Positions 30,448 through 38,217 of a DNA stretch of 64,000 nucleotides are shown piece after piece. The DNA is taken from the NCBI RefSeq assembly GCF_013004105.1, contig NZ_CP053085.1:3596001-3660000 (forward strand), read 5' to 3'. The notes beneath the pieces are model-generated. The model had not been told where the DNA came from, did no database searches, and saw nothing but the letters and a program-made list of their open reading frames with translations. Position numbers and translations under genes: made by a program. Within the stretch, counting starts at the first letter, position 1, and every line of letters begins with the position of its first letter. The DNA is from Gemmatimonas groenlandica (GTDB lineage: Bacteria; Gemmatimonadota; Gemmatimonadetes; Gemmatimonadales; Gemmatimonadaceae).

Positions 30448-30909
30448 TCAACGCTCGGGACTAGGAGGCGGTCCGCCACCCGGCGGGCCGCCTCTCGACG
30501 TTTCACCACCCGGAGGCCCACCACCCGGAGGCCCACCACCCGGAGGCGGTCGAAACGGATCGGGCAGTCGTCCCATCTCATTCATCCGTCTCCGTTGATC
30601 GGCATCGAGCACGGGCTCGAGCTGCGCACGCATCGCCTCGAGCGTGGATCGCAACTCAGCCTGCGCAGCACCGATGATCTGCGAATTGCGAGCGCCCGTT
30701 TTCTCCAGCAGAGGCATGATGACCGCGCGTTGGTCGGCTCGTGGTTGGATAATCGACTCCATGTGTCGCACGAAGCCCTGTTCATGTCGGAGCTGACCCA
30801 TGCGATCATTGCGTCGACGTTGCAACGTGCCTTGCAACACCAGGCCCAGCACGATCCCCAACGCGAGCGTGCCGCCCACGATCGTGGTCGACCTCAGGTC
30901 CATCTTCAT
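30448..30909 (-). CDS. CnrX/Spy-like periplasmic sensor of an ECF module
   Basis: ATG 30909 overlaps the preceding stop as ATGA, which fixes the start and gives 153 residues. A membrane anchor (TIVGGTLALGIVLGLVL) is followed by a helical region of about 80 residues (GQLRHEQGFVRHMESIIQ, LRSTLEAMRAQLEPVLDADQRRRM). This resembles the LTxxQ-type CnrX/CpxP heavy-metal-sensor fold. The tail is Gly/Pro-rich with repeated PPGG units. As third gene after sigma and anti-sigma it likely modulates the anti-sigma factor from the periplasm. The signal (metal, misfolding) is not shown. Confidence 0.75.
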   Translation of the reverse strand: MKMDLRSTTIVGGTLALGIVLGLVLQGTLQRRRNDRMGQLRHEQGFVRHMESIIQPRADQRAVIMPLLEKTGARNSQIIGAAQAELRSTLEAMRAQLEPVLDADQRRRMNEMGRLPDPFRPPPGGGPPGGGPPGGETSRGGPPGGGPPPSPER

Positions 30910-31277
30910 CGATTGGTTTCTCCCCAACTCGTGAGCGCACCGTCGAGTGTGTAGGCCGATGCCAGTGTCACCGTGGGCAAGCCGAACAACCGATCGAGAA
31001 TCGGCTGACCGCGACCGCTGGCGTTCATGAGATTCACAGTGCTCAACACCAGCACCGCGGCGGCCGCTAGCGGCGCGAGACGCACGAACACGTACTGCAA
31101 CGCATCGGTAGACGAATCAGTAGACGAATCGCCAGCGGCGCGGGTCGCCGCCCGCCGAGCCATGACGCGATCGGCGAAGCCCGGCGCAAACGCCACGTGG
31201 CCGGCGGCCTCGCGCAGCACACGCAGCTCGTTCTCGGTTGGCTCGGATGTCAGATCATGCCCGTGGTCATCACGCAT
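30906..31277 (-). CDS. Anti-sigma factor-like membrane protein
   Basis: ATG 31277 gives 123 residues and overlaps the sigma gene end by 8 bases, as in translationally coupled sigma/anti-sigma pairs. The N-terminal cytosolic part is acidic and helical (ENELRVLREAAGHVAFAPGFADRVMARR). It is followed by one membrane span (LAPLAAAAVLVLSTVNLM, about 74-91) and a short periplasmic part. No zinc-binding HxxxCxxC motif is seen, so it is not a ZAS type. The assignment rests mainly on topology and gene order. Confidence 0.72.
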   Translation of the reverse strand: MRDDHGHDLTSEPTENELRVLREAAGHVAFAPGFADRVMARRAATRAAGDSSTDSSTDALQYVFVRLAPLAAAAVLVLSTVNLMNASGRGQPILDRLFGLPTVTLASAYTLDGALTSWGETNR

Positions 31278-31848
31278 TGCGTTGCTCCTTGCTGTCGTTC
31301 GCGTACCAACCCAACCGTCGTTGCAGTTCAGCCACGCCACGAGATAGTCGGCTCATGACGGTGCCCGGTGGCAGGTCCAGTACCTCGGCCGTCTCGTTCG
31401 TGGAAAGTCCGTCGAGCAAACGAAGCACCACCACGCTGCGCTGCTTCTCACCCAGCTGCGCAACGGCCCGTCGCACCACGGCCACGCGTTCAGCACCTTC
31501 GGCGTCGTACGCGTCCACCACCGGCTCATGCAGCGGTGTCGTGGCGTGATCGCGACTCACGAGCCGCAGCGAGAACCGTCGTCGTCGCTTGAGCGCGTTG
31601 AGCGACAAATTCATCGCGATGCGCCGCAGATACGTTCCGAGCGCTGCTTCGCCGCGAAACGTCGAGATCGCGGCCGAGAATCGAATGAACGTTTCCTGAC
31701 CGACGTCGTCCGCATCGTCGCCCGCGCCCAGCATCCCGATCACCACCGACGCCACGGCCTGCTCGTAGCGTTCGACGAGCGCGCGAAACGCGGCCTCGTC
31801 GCCGCTCCGGGCGCGGTCCAGCAGGATATCGTCGGACAGTGATGACAT
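31270..31848 (-). CDS. ECF-family RNA polymerase sigma factor
   Basis: ATG 31848 gives 192 residues of a group IV sigma factor. Region 2 spans FRALVERYEQAVASVVIGML and DADDVGQETFIRFSAAISTFRGEAALGTYLRRIAMNL. Region 4 spans VAQLGEKQRSVVVLRLLDGLSTNETAEVLDLPPGTVMSRLSRGVAEL. There is no C-terminal extension. It heads a three-gene operon: sigma, membrane anti-sigma, then a periplasmic CnrX-like protein. It diverges from the YHYH-domain lipoprotein, which lies 151 bases away and is a plausible regulon member. Confidence 0.92.
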   Translation of the reverse strand: MSSLSDDILLDRARSGDEAAFRALVERYEQAVASVVIGMLGAGDDADDVGQETFIRFSAAISTFRGEAALGTYLRRIAMNLSLNALKRRRRFSLRLVSRDHATTPLHEPVVDAYDAEGAERVAVVRRAVAQLGEKQRSVVVLRLLDGLSTNETAEVLDLPPGTVMSRLSRGVAELQRRLGWYANDSKEQRNA

Positions 31849-31998
31849 CGTGGATGAGAAAGGTGAGCACCGGGATTGGACAATCACGGCGCGGCGTTCA
31901 TTCCATCCGGTCGGCCGCCGAGTCGGAGCAATCTGAAATGGAATGAGCGGGAAGGATCGGTTGTCGAACCGGTAACCCAACCACTTCCGGGAGCCTAC

Positions 31999-32878: not shown

Positions 32879-33292
32879 TCACCCGCCGTCGCGGAGTGCT
32901 TTCCGCACCACGAGCTTAAGACCCGACCAGACCTCGTCGACGGCGCACACCTTCACGTCGACGAACCCCAAGGGAAGTGCCACGGCGCGGACGGTATCCT
33001 CGGTGATATCGGTCGCGACCTTGGCGCTTTTCTTTGGCCACGACACCCAGATCACCACCGTGTCGGGCAGCGCCGTGCGCCACGCCGTGAGTTTCGACGC
33101 GAGTTCAGCGCGCTCGGTCGTGAACAAGTGCACCACCTGCGCCGCAGGCGCGAGCCGCGCGAGAAAGCACACTGACGGCGGCAGCGGTGCGAGCAACGAC
33201 TGATAGTGCGACGGCGCGTGTACCACATGCACCACCGTGCCCTCGACGATGCCCAGTTTCTTCGCCAGCGGTGTACCGGAGTAGCCAGCCAC
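32879..33292 (-). CDS. DUF3052-like protein
   Basis: GTG 33292 is preceded by GGAG at about six bases and gives 137 residues beginning VAGYSGTPLAKKLGI (written as Met). The start GYSGTPLAKKLGI, the VVHVVHAP strand and VIWVSWPKKSAKVATDITEDTVRAVALPLGFVDVKVCAVDEVWSGLKLVVRKALR match DUF3052-type proteins. They are small cytosolic proteins of unknown function. It is divergent from the second ECF sigma gene. Confidence 0.8.
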   Translation of the reverse strand: MAGYSGTPLAKKLGIVEGTVVHVVHAPSHYQSLLAPLPPSVCFLARLAPAAQVVHLFTTERAELASKLTAWRTALPDTVVIWVSWPKKSAKVATDITEDTVRAVALPLGFVDVKVCAVDEVWSGLKLVVRKALRDGG

Positions 33293-33300
33293 GCGATCTC

Positions 33301-33322
33301 CAAGTTGGTTTCCCCCAACTTG
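33301..33322. promoter_or_regulatory. Perfect 8-bp palindrome between divergent genes
   Basis: CAAGTTGG and CCAACTTG are perfect complements separated by six bases. They sit in the 62-base gap between the DUF3052-like start (33292) and the ECF sigma start (33355). It overlaps the DUF3052 leader next to its ribosome binding site, so it could be an operator or a leader hairpin. Confidence 0.45.
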
Positions 33323-33354
33323 TGACGATCCTCGATTTCCGCGAGTTATTGGGC

Positions 33355-33966
33355 ATGCCCACGCCACAGGCCACCACGGCCGACGCCACGATTATCCGAC
33401 GGGTGCTGGCCGGCGACGTCAACGCCTTCGCGCTGATCGTCGACCGGTATCACGCCCGTTGTCTGCGCGTGGCCACGCACCTGCTGGGCGATTCCGACGA
33501 CGCCGAGGATGCGGTGCAGGACGCCTTTGTGCGCGCCTACCGGCATCTCGGGAGCTATCGGCCCAGAGACGTCGGTGTCGACAACGCCGGTGGCGAGAGC
33601 GGCGGTGACGGCGCGTTCGGGGCGTGGCTGCTGCGCATCCTCGTGAACCAGTGTCGCACTCGCTCCGCCCGTATGTCCCGGTATGCACGGTTCGACGCCG
33701 AACCATCTGAGCAGATTGAGGGGGGCGCTGCGGAGCCTACGGCGGCGACTGATCATGAAGCCGCCGAGCGACGGACCGATCTCGCCCAGGCGCTGGCCCT
33801 GCTCAGCCCCGAACACCGGGAAGCGGTCGTCCTGCGCTTCGCCGACGAATTGAGCTATGACGAGATGGCGTCAATCACCGGGGTCGGCGTGTCCGCCCTC
33901 AAGATGCGCGTGCAACGCGCCTGTACCCGACTGCGCGCCCTGCTCGCGGAGCACCTTCATGCCTGA
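33355..33966 (+). CDS. ECF-family RNA polymerase sigma factor (second module)
   Basis: ATG 33355 gives 203 residues; an in-frame GTG at 33322 would add 11. Region 2 runs from FALIVDRYHARCLRVATHLLGDSDDAEDAVQDAFVRAYRHL to AWLLRILVNQCRTRSARM. Region 4 is AQALALLSPEHREAVVLRFADELSYDEMASITGVGVSALKMRVQRACTRLRALL. A glycine-rich insertion (VGVDNAGGESGGDG) splits region 2 from the usual WLxRI motif. It is followed by a membrane protein and a DUF2723 gene on the same strand, with gaps of 18 and 9 bases, so all three probably share a transcript. Confidence 0.92.
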   Translation: MPTPQATTADATIIRRVLAGDVNAFALIVDRYHARCLRVATHLLGDSDDAEDAVQDAFVRAYRHLGSYRPRDVGVDNAGGESGGDGAFGAWLLRILVNQCRTRSARMSRYARFDAEPSEQIEGGAAEPTAATDHEAAERRTDLAQALALLSPEHREAVVLRFADELSYDEMASITGVGVSALKMRVQRACTRLRALLAEHLHA

Positions 33967-33984
33967 GTCCCATGCCTGAGTCTC

Positions 33985-34590
33985 ATGACTGACCAGATCC
34001 CTCCTTCGCTTCCCGGCTGGGCGATCGACGCGTTGCGCACCCCGGTCACCAGTCGGGCCGGATCGCGGGACGGTATCATGCGCGCCGTACGCGGCCTCCC
34101 GGCGCCGCGGCGGCTCTCGGCACCGGCCGCCGCCGTGCGGGCGTCGCGCTGGTTTCGCCGTGGCTCGCTCACCGGCGCCGGCAGCGTGTTGCTCACCGCG
34201 GTGCTGGCCTTCATGGTGTCGGTGCATCGCGGTGACCAACTGGCCGTGATGGCGCAGATGCAGACATCGGCCGTAGTCCTTGGCGACACCGTCGTACCCG
34301 CCGTCGGCGCCCCCGACTCGCTCGGCGCACGACTGCTCGACACCCTGCGGATCGTGCAGTTCGCTATTCGCGGACCACATATCGGCGCGGCCGAAGTCAT
34401 CGGCACGTTCAACGGCTGGCATCGCGGGAGCACCGCCATGGCCAGCGCCTCGCGGCATTCCGACGAATGGCGGGCGCGTGTGCTGGTGCCCCGCGACGCC
34501 CTCGACTTCGCGTTCGTGGTCAGCGACGCGAGCGAAACACCGATGCGCGAGCGGGTTATTCCGGCCGCGCCACTCCCCGCTCAGAACTAG
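33985..34590 (+). CDS. Membrane protein with glycogen-binding (CBM48-like) domain, putative anti-sigma
   Basis: The 201-residue protein has a cytosolic N-terminal part (1-60), one membrane span (62-80: LTGAGSVLLTAVLAFMVSV) and a C-terminal E-set fold of about 60 residues (122-185). The fold includes QFAIRGPHIGAAEVIGTFNGWHRGSTAM, which matches the AMPK/isoamylase-type glycogen-recognition pattern (FNGW). WRARVLVPRDALDFAFVVSD follows, as in CBM48. Being second in a sigma operon and one-pass, it probably holds the sigma factor. The outward CBM48-like domain would sense polysaccharide, which is inference. Confidence 0.78.
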   Translation: MTDQIPPSLPGWAIDALRTPVTSRAGSRDGIMRAVRGLPAPRRLSAPAAAVRASRWFRRGSLTGAGSVLLTAVLAFMVSVHRGDQLAVMAQMQTSAVVLGDTVVPAVGAPDSLGARLLDTLRIVQFAIRGPHIGAAEVIGTFNGWHRGSTAMASASRHSDEWRARVLVPRDALDFAFVVSDASETPMRERVIPAAPLPAQN

Positions 34591-34599
34591 TCACTCCTC

Positions 34600-36897
34600 A
34601 TGCTGCTTCACGCTCTCCGCTCGCGCGGGGCCCCCGCTGGCTGCGCGCTTCTCGCGTTGTGTACCCTCATGGCGGGCTATGCCGACCTATGGCGCGGCGG
34701 CACCGATCTGGCCGCGGCGCTCCTCACCATCGGTTACGTCGTCTGCGTGCCGCTCGCGATCCTCGTCGCCGGTGGCGCCCTCGGTGCGGAGCGTCAGGAA
34801 GCCGGCGCGCCGCCGTACCGCGCGGCGGCCGTGGTGTCGCTCGCGGTCCTCGCGCTCTATGCGTTCACGCTCGCGCCCACCACCGCAATGTGGGACGCCA
34901 GTGAGTACATCGCCGCGGCCAAAGTACTCGGTATTCCGCATCCGCCGGGGAATCCGATGTTCGTGCTGCTGGCCCACGCATTCGCGCAAGCGACATCGCT
35001 CCTACCGGTATCGCTGACGTATGCGGCGCGCGTGAATCTGCTGGCCGCCACCACCAGTGCCCTGTCGGCCGGTTGCTGGTTTCTCGTCGCGCATCGATCG
35101 CTGCACGAATTCGACATGCCGCGCGTGCCGCGACTGGTCACCGCTGCTGCCGCCGCGTGGATCGGTGCCACCGCCTTCACGGTGTGGAACCAGAGTGTCG
35201 TGAACGAGAAAGTGTACACCGTCGCCATGCTGGGCCTCGCGGCATCGGCGTGGTGTGCGCTGCGCTGGCACGACACGCGAAACGATGCATTCCTCGTGCT
35301 CATCGCGTATCTGTGCGGGTTGGGCTATGCCAATCACCCCGCCGGCTTTCTGCCGGTACCTGCGGTCGGATTGTTCGTGTTGTTGCGCCGTCCTGGCACG
35401 TTGCTACGCTGGCGCACGCTGAGTGCGGTCGCGCTGCTGCTGGGCGTCGGCCTCACGCCATTCCTGTTTCAGCCCATTCGCGCCGCGCATCGCCCGGTGA
35501 TCAATGTGGGCGAACCCACCGCCTGCGTCGGTGCGCCGGAGCTATCGTGTACGTTCAGCGCCGAGACGTGGACGAAGCTGATGTCGAACGTGAGCCGCGA
35601 GCAGTACGGCGGACACAACGTCGCGGTGCGACAGGCGCCGATCGGTGCGCAGGTCGGCATGTGGTGGCAGTACTTCGAATGGCAATGGATGCGCGACGCG
35701 TGGCAGCAGCATCCGCGCGTACAGCAACTGGTCGCGCTGTGCGTGCTCGCGCTCGGCCTGTTCGGTGGTGTACGCCATTTCCAGCGCGACCGTGCAACCT
35801 TCGCGTTCGTAGCGCCACTCATTTTCACGCTGACACCGGCGCTGATCGTGTATCTGAACTTCAAGTACGGCGCTTCACAGGCACCGGAGCTTGGCGACAG
35901 CGTAAATCGCGAAGTCCGCGATCGCGACTACTTCTACCTCTGGAGCTTCGCTACCTGGAGCGTGTGGGTGGGTATTGGCCTCGGCGCACTGTGGCAACAG
36001 CTGGCCCGGCGCGTCACGTGGGCGCGCACCAGTGTCGTGATGTCGCTGGCGTTGGTGCCCGTGATGCTGAACGGCGCGTCCGCTTCGCGGCGCGGACAGG
36101 CGTTCACGGCGCTCTGGGCGCGTGACCTACTGCAATCGGTCGAACCCAACGGCGTGCTCATCACCAACGGCGACAACGATTCCTTTCCCGTCTGGTATGC
36201 GCAGTTCGTGGAGGGGGTGCGGCCCGATGTCACCATTGCCCTCGTGCCATATCTCAATACCGATTGGTACGCACGACAGCTGCTCAATCGCCCGCCTGTG
36301 CCGTACGACGGCAGTGGCATTGCGGCTTATCGCGCCTTGCGCACGAACACGCCCGCGACCGCCTTCGGAACACTCACGGCCGCAGAGACCGACGCCATTC
36401 CGCCATATCTCCAGCTGCCGGAGCCGGCGCGATTCCAGCACGCCGGTATCGATGCCGTCATTCCGGCCGGCTATCTCACACGGGATCAGCTGATGGTACT
36501 GCAATTCATCAAGTCGACTTTCCCAGCGCGGCCCATTCACTTCTCGATTGGCGGCTATCCGCGCGGCATCGGCTTGAACGACTACGTGGTGACGCAGGGA
36601 CTCACGCAGCGGCTGCTGAACGAACCCGCCGCCTCGCACCCGGAGTATCTGGCCTATCCCGGTGGTCACCTCGATCTCGAGCGTACGCGCGCCCTCTGGC
36701 AGACATACGGCGCACCTGGAGCCTTGCTGGCGCAGGGTACGTGGATCGACGCGCCGTCGGTATCGATACCGGCCGCGTACGTGATCACCGGACAACTGTT
36801 GGGCTTCGCCTCGCGGGCGGTGGGAGACAGCGCGACCGGCGGCGCAGTGTTGCGGCAGGTTGACCGCCTGTCACGCGCCGCCGGATTACAGCAATAG
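34600..36897 (+). CDS. DUF2723 multi-pass membrane protein (glycosyltransferase-like)
   Basis: The 765-residue protein has about ten membrane segments in the N-terminal half (LLALCTLMAGY, AALLTIGYVVCVPLAILVAGG, AAVVSLAVLALYAF, ALLLGVGLTPFLF and others). The DUF2723 signature is WDASEYIAAAKVLGIPHPPGNPMF; the Asp/Glu pair resembles the catalytic acid of GT-C protein O-mannosyltransferases. The C-terminal portion (about 480-765) is outside the membrane. GT-C enzymes transfer sugars from polyprenyl carriers. The link to the sigma operon suggests an envelope-glycosylation regulon. Confidence 0.85.
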   Translation: MLLHALRSRGAPAGCALLALCTLMAGYADLWRGGTDLAAALLTIGYVVCVPLAILVAGGALGAERQEAGAPPYRAAAVVSLAVLALYAFTLAPTTAMWDASEYIAAAKVLGIPHPPGNPMFVLLAHAFAQATSLLPVSLTYAARVNLLAATTSALSAGCWFLVAHRSLHEFDMPRVPRLVTAAAAAWIGATAFTVWNQSVVNEKVYTVAMLGLAASAWCALRWHDTRNDAFLVLIAYLCGLGYANHPAGFLPVPAVGLFVLLRRPGTLLRWRTLSAVALLLGVGLTPFLFQPIRAAHRPVINVGEPTACVGAPELSCTFSAETWTKLMSNVSREQYGGHNVAVRQAPIGAQVGMWWQYFEWQWMRDAWQQHPRVQQLVALCVLALGLFGGVRHFQRDRATFAFVAPLIFTLTPALIVYLNFKYGASQAPELGDSVNREVRDRDYFYLWSFATWSVWVGIGLGALWQQLARRVTWARTSVVMSLALVPVMLNGASASRRGQAFTALWARDLLQSVEPNGVLITNGDNDSFPVWYAQFVEGVRPDVTIALVPYLNTDWYARQLLNRPPVPYDGSGIAAYRALRTNTPATAFGTLTAAETDAIPPYLQLPEPARFQHAGIDAVIPAGYLTRDQLMVLQFIKSTFPARPIHFSIGGYPRGIGLNDYVVTQGLTQRLLNEPAASHPEYLAYPGGHLDLERTRALWQTYGAPGALLAQGTWIDAPSVSIPAAYVITGQLLGFASRAVGDSATGGAVLRQVDRLSRAAGLQQ

Positions 36898-36915: not shown

Positions 36916-38217
36916 TCAGTCGAGCAACAGCAACGTCTGACCACCTTCGTGCACGATGCGCATGACCTGATCGCGGCCTTTCGCATTCGAGATGGTGTGC
37001 ACCGACTCGCAGCCCTGCATGCGGTGACTGAGATGCTCACCCAGCAGGCTCGATGCGCCGAACATCAGCGCGATGCTGCGATCGTGCTTGTCATAGGTGG
37101 CACCGACCAGCGGCATACCGTGCCCCAGCGACTGCGCACCGAAGTCGTCGCGATCCATCTCGATGCTGCAGGAGCGTCCCGCGTTTCTCGTGGTGAAGGC
37201 GTTCAACGCGGCGTCGAGCACATCGAGTGCGTAGCTGTGGGTCTGTTGCGTTCCGCTCGACTCGGCGCGGGCCGCCGCGATCGTCTGCGCGCGTCCAGGC
37301 ACGCACAAGACGGAACACGGCGCCGAGCGCACCAGCTCAGAGGTCACGCTTCCCAGTACCATGCGGCGCAGAAAGCCGTAGCCGTGGGTGGCGGTCACCA
37401 CGAGATCGGCATGCGCCGACTCGAGATATTCGAGCAGACGCTCCGACGGACTACCCTGCAGCGACACGGTCTCTACGATGAAACCGCGCGGCTCGAGATG
37501 CTCCTTCAGCAGCGCGAATCCTTTGGCGATCTCTTGCCTGTACCCATCCACAATGGCCGCGTCTGCCGCGTCGGGTTCGCTGAGCGTAGGACCCACGTGC
37601 ACCAGCCGAACGGTCGCCGCCGGCGCAATCAGGCCCATGGAAACCTGCGCCGCATAGAGACTGAATGGGCTGAAGTCGGTAGCGATCACCACATTCTTCG
37701 GCAGGGTGTCCGAGCCCGGTTCGACGGCCAATACCGGCGCATCGCTCAGCTGCAGCAGCCGCAACACTGATTCGCCACCGAACACCCGGGCGAGCACGGA
37801 GTGCCGTCCGCGACCAACGATGATCACGCGCGCGCCGATGGCACGCGCATCTTCCACGATCTCCGTGAGTGGCTCGCCCACGCGCACGCGCACGGGCCAC
37901 GACGTGCCGATGGGCGTCGTACGCGCCATCTGCCGCTCGATCTCCGACTGGCGACCTTCCATGATATACGGCTCGGCCTGCGTCCAATACGGGACGGGCT
38001 CGTACGCGTACAACGGCATGGCGTTCGGTCGCAGCCCACTCACGACTTCCACCGGTGCGTGCACTGAGGCCGCGAGCAGGCGCGCCATGGGAAACGCGGC
38101 ATCGGACGCGGGCGACGTATCGGTGGCGACGAGAATCGGGCCAGCTGGGGCTATCGTCGGTTCGAATGTGTTCGAAATGTCAGTCGCAGTGCGAATGTTC
38201 GGCGCATGGGTCGACAT
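36916..38217 (-). CDS. Tandem universal stress protein with extra C-terminal domain
   Basis: The 433-residue protein has two USP folds. The first (about 25-165) starts GPILVATDTSPASDAAF and ends GARVIIVGRGRHSVLARVFGGESVLRLLQLSDAPVLAV. The second (about 170-310) starts KNVVIATDFSPFSLYAAQ and ends HADLVVTATHGYGFLRRMVLGSVTSELVRSAPCSVLCV. Its G-x2-G-x9-G-S/T motif is compatible with ATP binding. A C-terminal region of about 85 residues (SIEMDRDDFGAQ to the end) resembles DUF5335-type proteins. It is downstream of the BON gene by 36 bases and probably in one operon with the regulator at 39.7 kb. Confidence 0.88.
   Translation of the reverse strand: MSTHAPNIRTATDISNTFEPTIAPAGPILVATDTSPASDAAFPMARLLAASVHAPVEVVSGLRPNAMPLYAYEPVPYWTQAEPYIMEGRQSEIERQMARTTPIGTSWPVRVRVGEPLTEIVEDARAIGARVIIVGRGRHSVLARVFGGESVLRLLQLSDAPVLAVEPGSDTLPKNVVIATDFSPFSLYAAQVSMGLIAPAATVRLVHVGPTLSEPDAADAAIVDGYRQEIAKGFALLKEHLEPRGFIVETVSLQGSPSERLLEYLESAHADLVVTATHGYGFLRRMVLGSVTSELVRSAPCSVLCVPGRAQTIAAARAESSGTQQTHSYALDVLDAALNAFTTRNAGRSCSIEMDRDDFGAQSLGHGMPLVGATYDKHDRSIALMFGASSLLGEHLSHRMQGCESVHTISNAKGRDQVMRIVHEGGQTLLLLD

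Follow-up and report, generated by a model that had tools for sequence, protein, structure and literature searches.

The closest described relatives of the system reported here are sigma factors controlled by a membrane-bound protein part. According to PMC10766802, RsgI of Clostridium thermocellum is a membrane anti-sigma factor that is co-encoded with SigI and senses extracellular substrates with its outside part, a polysaccharide being the trigger. In PMC8999054 and PMC10766802, ECF52/ECF53 (SCO4117) of Actinobacteria combine a sigma factor of the extracytoplasmic function (ECF) type, a membrane span and an outside carbohydrate-binding domain in one fused protein. Class I anti-sigma factors (RseA, RskA, RsiW) are co-encoded, often membrane-bound, and found beside an ECF sigma factor; PMC7406223 states that approximately 79% of Gemmatimonadetes ECFs have a class I anti-sigma factor and that anti-sigma and ECF distances correlate at 0.82, with no occurrence of “carbohydrate” or “glycogen” in its main text. 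Here we analyse a row of three genes from a 64,000-nucleotide stretch of the Gemmatimonas groenlandica genome (contig NZ_CP053085.1, positions 3,596,001 to 3,660,000; hereafter “the window”), which codes for an ECF sigma factor, a 201-amino acid (aa) one-span membrane protein and a predicted TMEM260-like (former DUF2723) glycosyltransferase (GT).

As in RsgI/SigI, a membrane anti-sigma factor with a sensor-type part outside would be co-encoded with its own sigma factor; unlike RsgI/SigI, which belong to the SigI family, to Gram-positive bacteria and to multi-gene cellulosome regulons, the locus has an ECF sigma factor, a CBM48/AMPK fold and a gemmatimonadotal host, and its regulon is apparently one operon. 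No SigI model stood among the 25 of 93 NCBIfam matches listed, and the sigma gene matches Sigma70_r2/r4. The sugar modules of RsgI we take to be CBM3, CBM42 and PA14. ECF52/ECF53 share the ECF sigma factor, the span and the outside carbohydrate-binding-type domain, but as one protein, whereas two genes and a CBM48-type domain are found here. From class I anti-sigma factors the 201-aa protein differs by its shorter cytosolic part and its CBM48 outside domain. In the open-access collection that was searched, where subscription papers and preprints are largely missing, we came across neither a CBM48/AMPK-type domain on an anti-sigma factor nor a comparable system in Gemmatimonadota.

We consider it likely, with some confidence, that the three genes make up an autoregulated switch of ECF sigma and anti-sigma factor, triggered from the periplasm, whose output is the operon including the GT gene. 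The gene order, the family and fold of the second protein, and the promoter dyad with its tie to the sigma and GT genes are established below. In kind the system, an ECF sigma factor with a predicted anti-sigma factor, is ordinary; what is unusual is the fold of the sensor, the spread over the whole phylum and the rewiring to a transferase of the TMEM260-like family. It places a fold of the glycogen/starch-binding type on a probable bacterial anti-sigma factor, offers a testable sensor for a whole phylum, a promoter motif for reading regulons from sequence and a bacterial TMEM260-like transferase whose gene appears to be regulated, and illustrates how the ligand site inherited by a sensor domain can be lost as the output of the switch changes.

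Sigma factor and membrane-bound partner

The three open reading frames (ORFs) follow each other on the forward strand with gaps of 18 nt (sigma gene to 201-aa protein gene) and 9 nt (201-aa protein gene to GT gene). The sigma gene matched Sigma70_r2 (PF04542, 7.4e-14) and Sigma70_r4_2 (PF08281, 4.8e-12) above the Pfam cut-offs and TIGR02937 above that of NCBIfam; regions 2 and 4 alone were found, as in group 4 (ECF) sigma factors. Its reading frame is open already from 33187, and the ATG at 33355 is favoured as the start because a promoter-like dyad ends at 33348. The third gene matched PF11028 (TMEM260-like, 2.3e-36, 125.7 bits at a cut-off of 24.2) and its product is probably an envelope enzyme that transfers sugars. 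ORFs, Pfam and a structure model thus confirmed what the first-pass annotation had read from the letters, namely a sigma factor, a one-span membrane protein and a DUF2723 gene in one row.

The pairing of the first two genes was conserved. All 39 loci with flanks of about 6 kb had a sigma gene immediately before the partner gene and in the same orientation. The pair recurs across Gemmatimonadota, and the sigma gene was the immediate upstream neighbour in 161 of 177 distinct full-length members, these members being the best-scoring matches and not a random sample (match start before profile position 46, score 60 bits, identical matched stretches merged). Among the other 16, the sigma gene was found one gene downstream in seven, five were cut by contig ends, and four had none within the available stretch. 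Start offsets of -4 or -8 nt, i.e. gene overlap, were seen in 110 of the 161 pairs, while none of 60 loci lower in the ranking (L156-L215, mostly ordinary CBM48 proteins), taken as control, had a sigma gene. The arrangement is therefore far beyond chance. It should be added that in L117, L123, L125, L126, L132, L135 and L152 the sigma gene follows the anti-sigma gene plus one further gene, and that this intervening gene has a second CBM match in all of them except L125; therefore, the gene order was flipped and the set kept together.

A contig profile search with a smaller family alignment returned at least 529 relatives, the best 80 of which were examined: 15 had a sigma gene by our sigma profile (L136-L138, L140-L143, L145, L146, L148-L150, L152, L154, L155) and 65 had none, L139 and L144 among the latter ending just upstream of the match. 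Sigma-positive loci outside Gemmatimonadota in these best 80 came from Eisenbacteria (L138), a deltaproteobacterium (L149), Acetothermia (L154) and a metagenome-assembled genome (MAG) labelled “Thermotoga sp.” (L155), which is similar to L154 and may be mislabelled. Family profile matches were present in 281 of 395 genomes; because CBM-only matches in long frames are counted as well, the number for the anti-sigma family itself can be no higher than this. Scanning the contigs with the 201-aa protein alone gave 126 pattern matches, none of which was confirmed.

The sigma factor co-varied in sequence most strongly with the cytosolic part of the partner (r 0.70), followed by the CBM part (0.56; 0.54 +/- 0.03 at equal column number) and the span (0.44), despite the cytosolic part being the least conserved of the three; shared ancestry alone does not account for this, because all three parts have the same ancestry. 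Furthermore, the deltaproteobacterial relative has a zf-HC2 domain (22.8 bits, cut-off 22.2) ahead of its span and AMPK1_CBM domain, with an ECF gene adjacent. Gene overlap, co-variation of the cytosolic part and zf-HC2 in a distant relative together support the anti-sigma role that had been proposed on first reading and make a membrane anti-sigma factor the most likely identity of the 201-aa protein. Several observations pull the other way: in mean-field direct coupling analysis of sigma factor and partner the cytosolic part received 10 of the 20 top pairs with 31.5% of the columns, a weak enrichment; at about 63 aa it falls below the class I average of 101 +/- 33 aa given in PMC7406223; and when the corresponding part of a related clade was run as a profile against the PDB, no anti-sigma structure came up, the best match being REV1 at E 0.027. 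The short cytosolic part, and a list of Pfam families for 41 aligned rows that contains no anti-sigma domain, would also suit a co-transcribed envelope protein with no anti-sigma function; near-obligate pairing with a sigma gene, the zf-HC2 domain and the maximum of co-variation in the cytosolic part make this very improbable. As a separate observation, the gene with zf-HC2 and AMPK-type domains (L149, 3620-4291) contains one in-frame TAG, which was read through and may reflect an assembly error, decay or recoding.

The structure model of the 201-aa protein (mean predicted local distance difference test, pLDDT, 75.6) places short N-terminal helices (11-18, 25-37, 51-55) before the span and a beta-sandwich after it. 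Helix position and charge bias, with 11 lysines and arginines in residues 1-63 and none in residues 92-115, indicate a cytosolic N-terminus and a single span, which bears out the topology first assigned. By its own sequence the protein stayed below Pfam gathering scores (only CBM53, E 0.0022, 18.7 bits against 27.6) and reached a sub-threshold GlgB match in NCBIfam (E 0.0064); a PDB sequence search returned no match. Among its relatives, however, CBM_48 was detected in 32 and AMPK1_CBM in 31 of the 41 aligned rows (E 0.01). Best structural matches of the outside domain were the CBM48 of the archaeal amylase 4aef (VIA Z 9.5, root-mean-square deviation (rmsd) 2.5, 85 residues) and, next, glycogen branching enzymes with Z 9.0 (E. 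coli 4lpc) and below; the best Foldseek E was 0.002, and the alignment behind the model includes canonical members of the family, described below. Immunoglobulin domains of PD-L1 and CD1 also appeared in the VIA list, at Z 6-7 and ranked under the branching enzymes, so that it takes the evidence from the family to make the fold class unambiguous. Family and fold, not the protein's own Pfam score, decide here, and the outside domain most likely has the CBM48/AMPK glycogen-binding fold, in agreement with the AMPK/isoamylase-type domain that the FNGW motif had first suggested. With the AMPK beta domain it shares fold and FN.W motif, and relatives match both Pfam models; it differs in its seat on a putative anti-sigma factor and in the absence of the second Trp and the Asn.

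Promoter-like dyad and the probable glycosyltransferase gene

With 6 nt between the end of the dyad GTGAC-N16-GAGTTA and the ATG of the sigma gene, the transcript is likely leaderless, and the dyad would be an ECF-type promoter through which the sigma factor regulates its own gene. In the family, the form that stands out ahead of sigma genes is GTGAC, 16 or 17 nt, GRGTY. In 158 upstream regions (the 161 minus three too short), TGAC-N16-18-G(N)GT occurred 110 times against 13-21 times in ten shuffles, and GTGAC-N16-GNGTY 40 times against 0-1 in three shuffles. The strict dyad is found once in the 5.18-Mb single-contig genome, at the sigma gene of the trio, with no match of the reversed control. 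All 16 same-genus genomes with a sigma orthologue had GTGAC-N16-GRGTT before it, 13 in the strict form and three (G039, G269, G372) with a different last base. Classical ECF motifs (GAAC...CGT) upstream of sigma were rejected, as they did not exceed shuffles. Between 33200 and 37000 no sigma-70 promoter was found, and terminator-like sites lay only within the GT gene.

The specificity of the dyad has limits, which count against reading it too widely. Across the 30 same-genus genomes there were 24 strict matches, of which 13 preceded the sigma gene, one belonged to a detached GT gene and ten were scattered, against 28 matches of the reversed pattern; the scattered ones, being no commoner than the reversed pattern, are likely due to chance, and the dyad alone is no predictor of targets. 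A looser form, which was not used, matched 55 times in the own genome against 12 in the control, and given this count further sigma targets with weaker sites may exist.

The GT gene, in turn, is tied to the sigma gene less strictly than the anti-sigma gene is. The prediction that neighbours be conserved in relatives stood for the sigma/anti-sigma pair and failed for the trio as a universal unit, the GT gene adjoining the pair in 7 of the 39 relatives with long flanks; outside the genus it follows the pair in L040, L041, L042 and L061 (genomes G184, G144, G199 and G071). Among the 30 same-genus genomes, 16 had the sigma orthologue, 11 a close GT orthologue (at least about 60% identity, fragmented in some genomes) and ten both (Fisher p 0.0024, weakened by partial genomes and by shared ancestry, which was not removed). 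The trio was contiguous in seven of these ten. In the other three the GT gene stood apart, by 5 kb in G068, by 10.7 kb in G398 and on another contig in G372, and it had a dyad of its own about 125 nt upstream in G398 and about 56 nt upstream in G068; by local pattern density, a dyad at two of three detached GT genes has a chance of about 4e-4. In G372 a copy with one mismatch was read by eye, and in G218, with GT but no close sigma orthologue, no dyad was seen before the GT gene.

These detached GT genes with their own dyad are the best evidence for placing GT in the sigma regulon. Together with the dyad shared by the operon they support sigma control of the GT gene, as the first-pass annotation had it for a GT-C-like gene. 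The contrary explanation, a bystander that happens to trail the pair, draws on the small share of relatives with an adjoining GT gene and on six of the 16 sigma-bearing same-genus genomes (G338, G351, G366, G039, G055, G078) having no close GT orthologue, points that do weigh against the regulon; the dyads of detached GT genes and the co-occurrence, with shared ancestry still in that test, render the bystander improbable. As a side observation, a 63-aa ORF directly after the pair in L043 (6651-6842) resembles only the N-terminal membrane hairpin of TMEM260-like proteins and is a remnant or a small partner.

The autoregulated switch could then work as follows. At rest, the cytosolic tail of the 201-aa protein would hold the sigma factor, with the CBM48-type domain in the periplasm. 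Upon contact of this domain with a ligand or partner, sigma would presumably be released and would read its own leaderless promoter. One operon comprising sigma, anti-sigma and TMEM260-like GT genes would be transcribed, and the output would be more envelope-facing sugar transferase, provided that the GT is enzymatically active.

Canonical systems and the ligand site

The genome of G. groenlandica itself has a canonical copy at about 240 kb (L072, 234000-248000; anti-sigma L072:7917-8576). There the sigma gene is followed by genes for an anti-sigma factor that has both ligand Trp as well as the Asn, for a protein of 251 aa that seems to carry a signal peptide, and for one of 487 aa whose C-terminal domain is AMPK1_CBM-like (27.5 and 23.5 bits in two runs, cut-off 26.8). 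Among the 39 loci, an exported helical protein was encoded downstream in 23 and a barrel protein in 16, the latter never together with GT; the helical protein also follows the pair at the deltaproteobacterial locus (E 1.6e-9). For one barrel protein, a model (pLDDT 82) shows a helix resembling a signal peptide, then 14 long strands and the CBM domain; its best matches are CymA, the porin for cyclodextrins, and OmpG (VIA Z 17.9, rmsd 4.2, 248 residues, and Z 17.8, rmsd 4.3, 227 residues). Closest to these porins in fold, it differs from them by its C-terminal CBM48 and an identity of 6%; the window locus has no barrel. Both ligand Trp of the barrel CBM48 are invariant in 27 of 27 aligned rows, and the even number of strands would put this C-terminal domain in the periplasm. 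This suggests coupled import and sensing of alpha-glucan in canonical systems.

In the 201-aa protein, FNGW is the first glucan-contact motif of the CBM48 fold, as in AMPK beta. W145 corresponds to AMPK beta1 W100, the first ligand Trp, and nothing corresponds to W133, the second one, or to N150. Of the two Trp and one Asn that make up the ligand site, the first Trp alone is thus present, and the DP and DDFG..N stretch of canonical members is missing. In 12 same-genus rows the second Trp was replaced in all and the first in ten. Of the 135 members whose sigma factor is more distant in sequence from that of the window, all kept the first Trp and 126 kept both (the 26/135 near/far split by sigma identity was set by the analyst). 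The ancestral alpha-glucan site is therefore, as judged from these residues, damaged in the branch of the window. The outer domain nevertheless showed ratios of non-synonymous to synonymous substitutions (dN/dS) of 0.02-0.17 in ten close pairs of same-genus orthologues, and this persisting purifying selection indicates that it is still working.

Since the canonical site has decayed, starch and glycogen are improbable as triggers, and a different glycan or contact with a protein is the likelier signal. The polysaccharide sensing first ascribed to the 201-aa protein is thus not supported, with the second ligand Trp gone here and both lost in most same-genus orthologues; such sensing would fit canonical members, including the paralogue in the same genome, better. 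That the domain still binds alpha-glucan or a related polysaccharide via W145, and so acts as a true polysaccharide sensor, could be argued from the intact FNGW, from a Trp at the first position in three same-genus GT-bearing relatives (L010; L350 and L355, the last two by eye) and from the two Trp of most distant members; the replacements in same-genus rows and the lost DP and DDFG..N stretch make this unlikely. A conversion of the domain to a protein-protein module, e.g. for GT or another envelope protein, or to a part in regulated proteolysis (cf. RseA, RsgI), with no sugar involved, is a real possibility, though one we hold somewhat doubtful: ligand residues were lost while purifying selection acts on the domain, but no partner was identified and the neighbour under its control is itself a sugar enzyme.

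The autoregulated switch in the window has probably been re-purposed from a phylum-wide system whose anti-sigma factor retains both Trp, often in an operon with genes for an exported helical protein and a CymA/OmpG-like barrel that has a C-terminal CBM48 of its own. Tentatively, and with support and doubt close to balance, we propose a glucan-sensing ECF class in Gemmatimonadota composed of sigma factor, inner-membrane CBM48 anti-sigma factor, exported helical adaptor and a 14-strand CymA/OmpG-like porin with a C-terminal CBM48, in which twin CBM48 domains, one on each membrane and both in the periplasm, would couple import and sensing of an alpha-glucan; a copy in the genus of the window would have lost glucan site and porin and have been rewired to a TMEM260-like O-glycosyltransferase, as a one-operon switch for the glycosylation of surface proteins or envelope.

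Feature coordinates and neighbouring genes

Table 1. Features of the sigma/anti-sigma/GT locus, in window positions
Feature	Position	Strand	Basis
ECF sigma factor, 203 aa	33355..33966	+	ORF, Pfam, NCBIfam
Predicted membrane anti-sigma factor, 201 aa, outside domain of CBM48 type	33985..34590	+	Pairing, model, fold, co-variation
TMEM260-like (former DUF2723) predicted GT-C-type glycosyltransferase, 765 aa	34600..36897	+	ORF, Pfam PF11028
Putative cytosolic anti-sigma part (residues 1-63), short helices, Arg-rich	33985..34173	+	Model, co-variation with sigma
Transmembrane helix (residues 64-91)	34174..34257	+	Model
Outside CBM48/AMPK-type beta-sandwich (residues 93-201)	34261..34587	+	Model, structural matches
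FNGW motif (residues 142-145)	34408..34419	+	W145, equivalent of first ligand Trp
Promoter-like dyad GTGAC-N16-GAGTTA	33322..33348	+	Sole strict match in genome; same dyad before sigma in relatives
Perfect inverted repeat, 8 bp, CAAGTTGG-N6-CCAACTTG	33301..33322	.	Touches -35-like box of sigma promoter

Rfam and tRNA scans of the window gave no matches. Transcription of a gene on the opposite strand (within 32879-33367; DUF3052 matched weakly, E 0.01) points away from the inverted repeat. Downstream of the trio, the reverse strand encodes at 36916-38217 a protein that combines two universal-stress domains with a C-terminal match to DUF5335 below threshold. It should also be added that a second ECF sigma gene (31270-31857, reverse strand) lies 1.5 kb from the trio, in a probable sigma/anti-sigma operon (30448-31857, same strand) in which it is followed by genes for a one-span protein of 121 aa, whose pre-membrane motif is similar, and for a 159-aa membrane-anchored protein.

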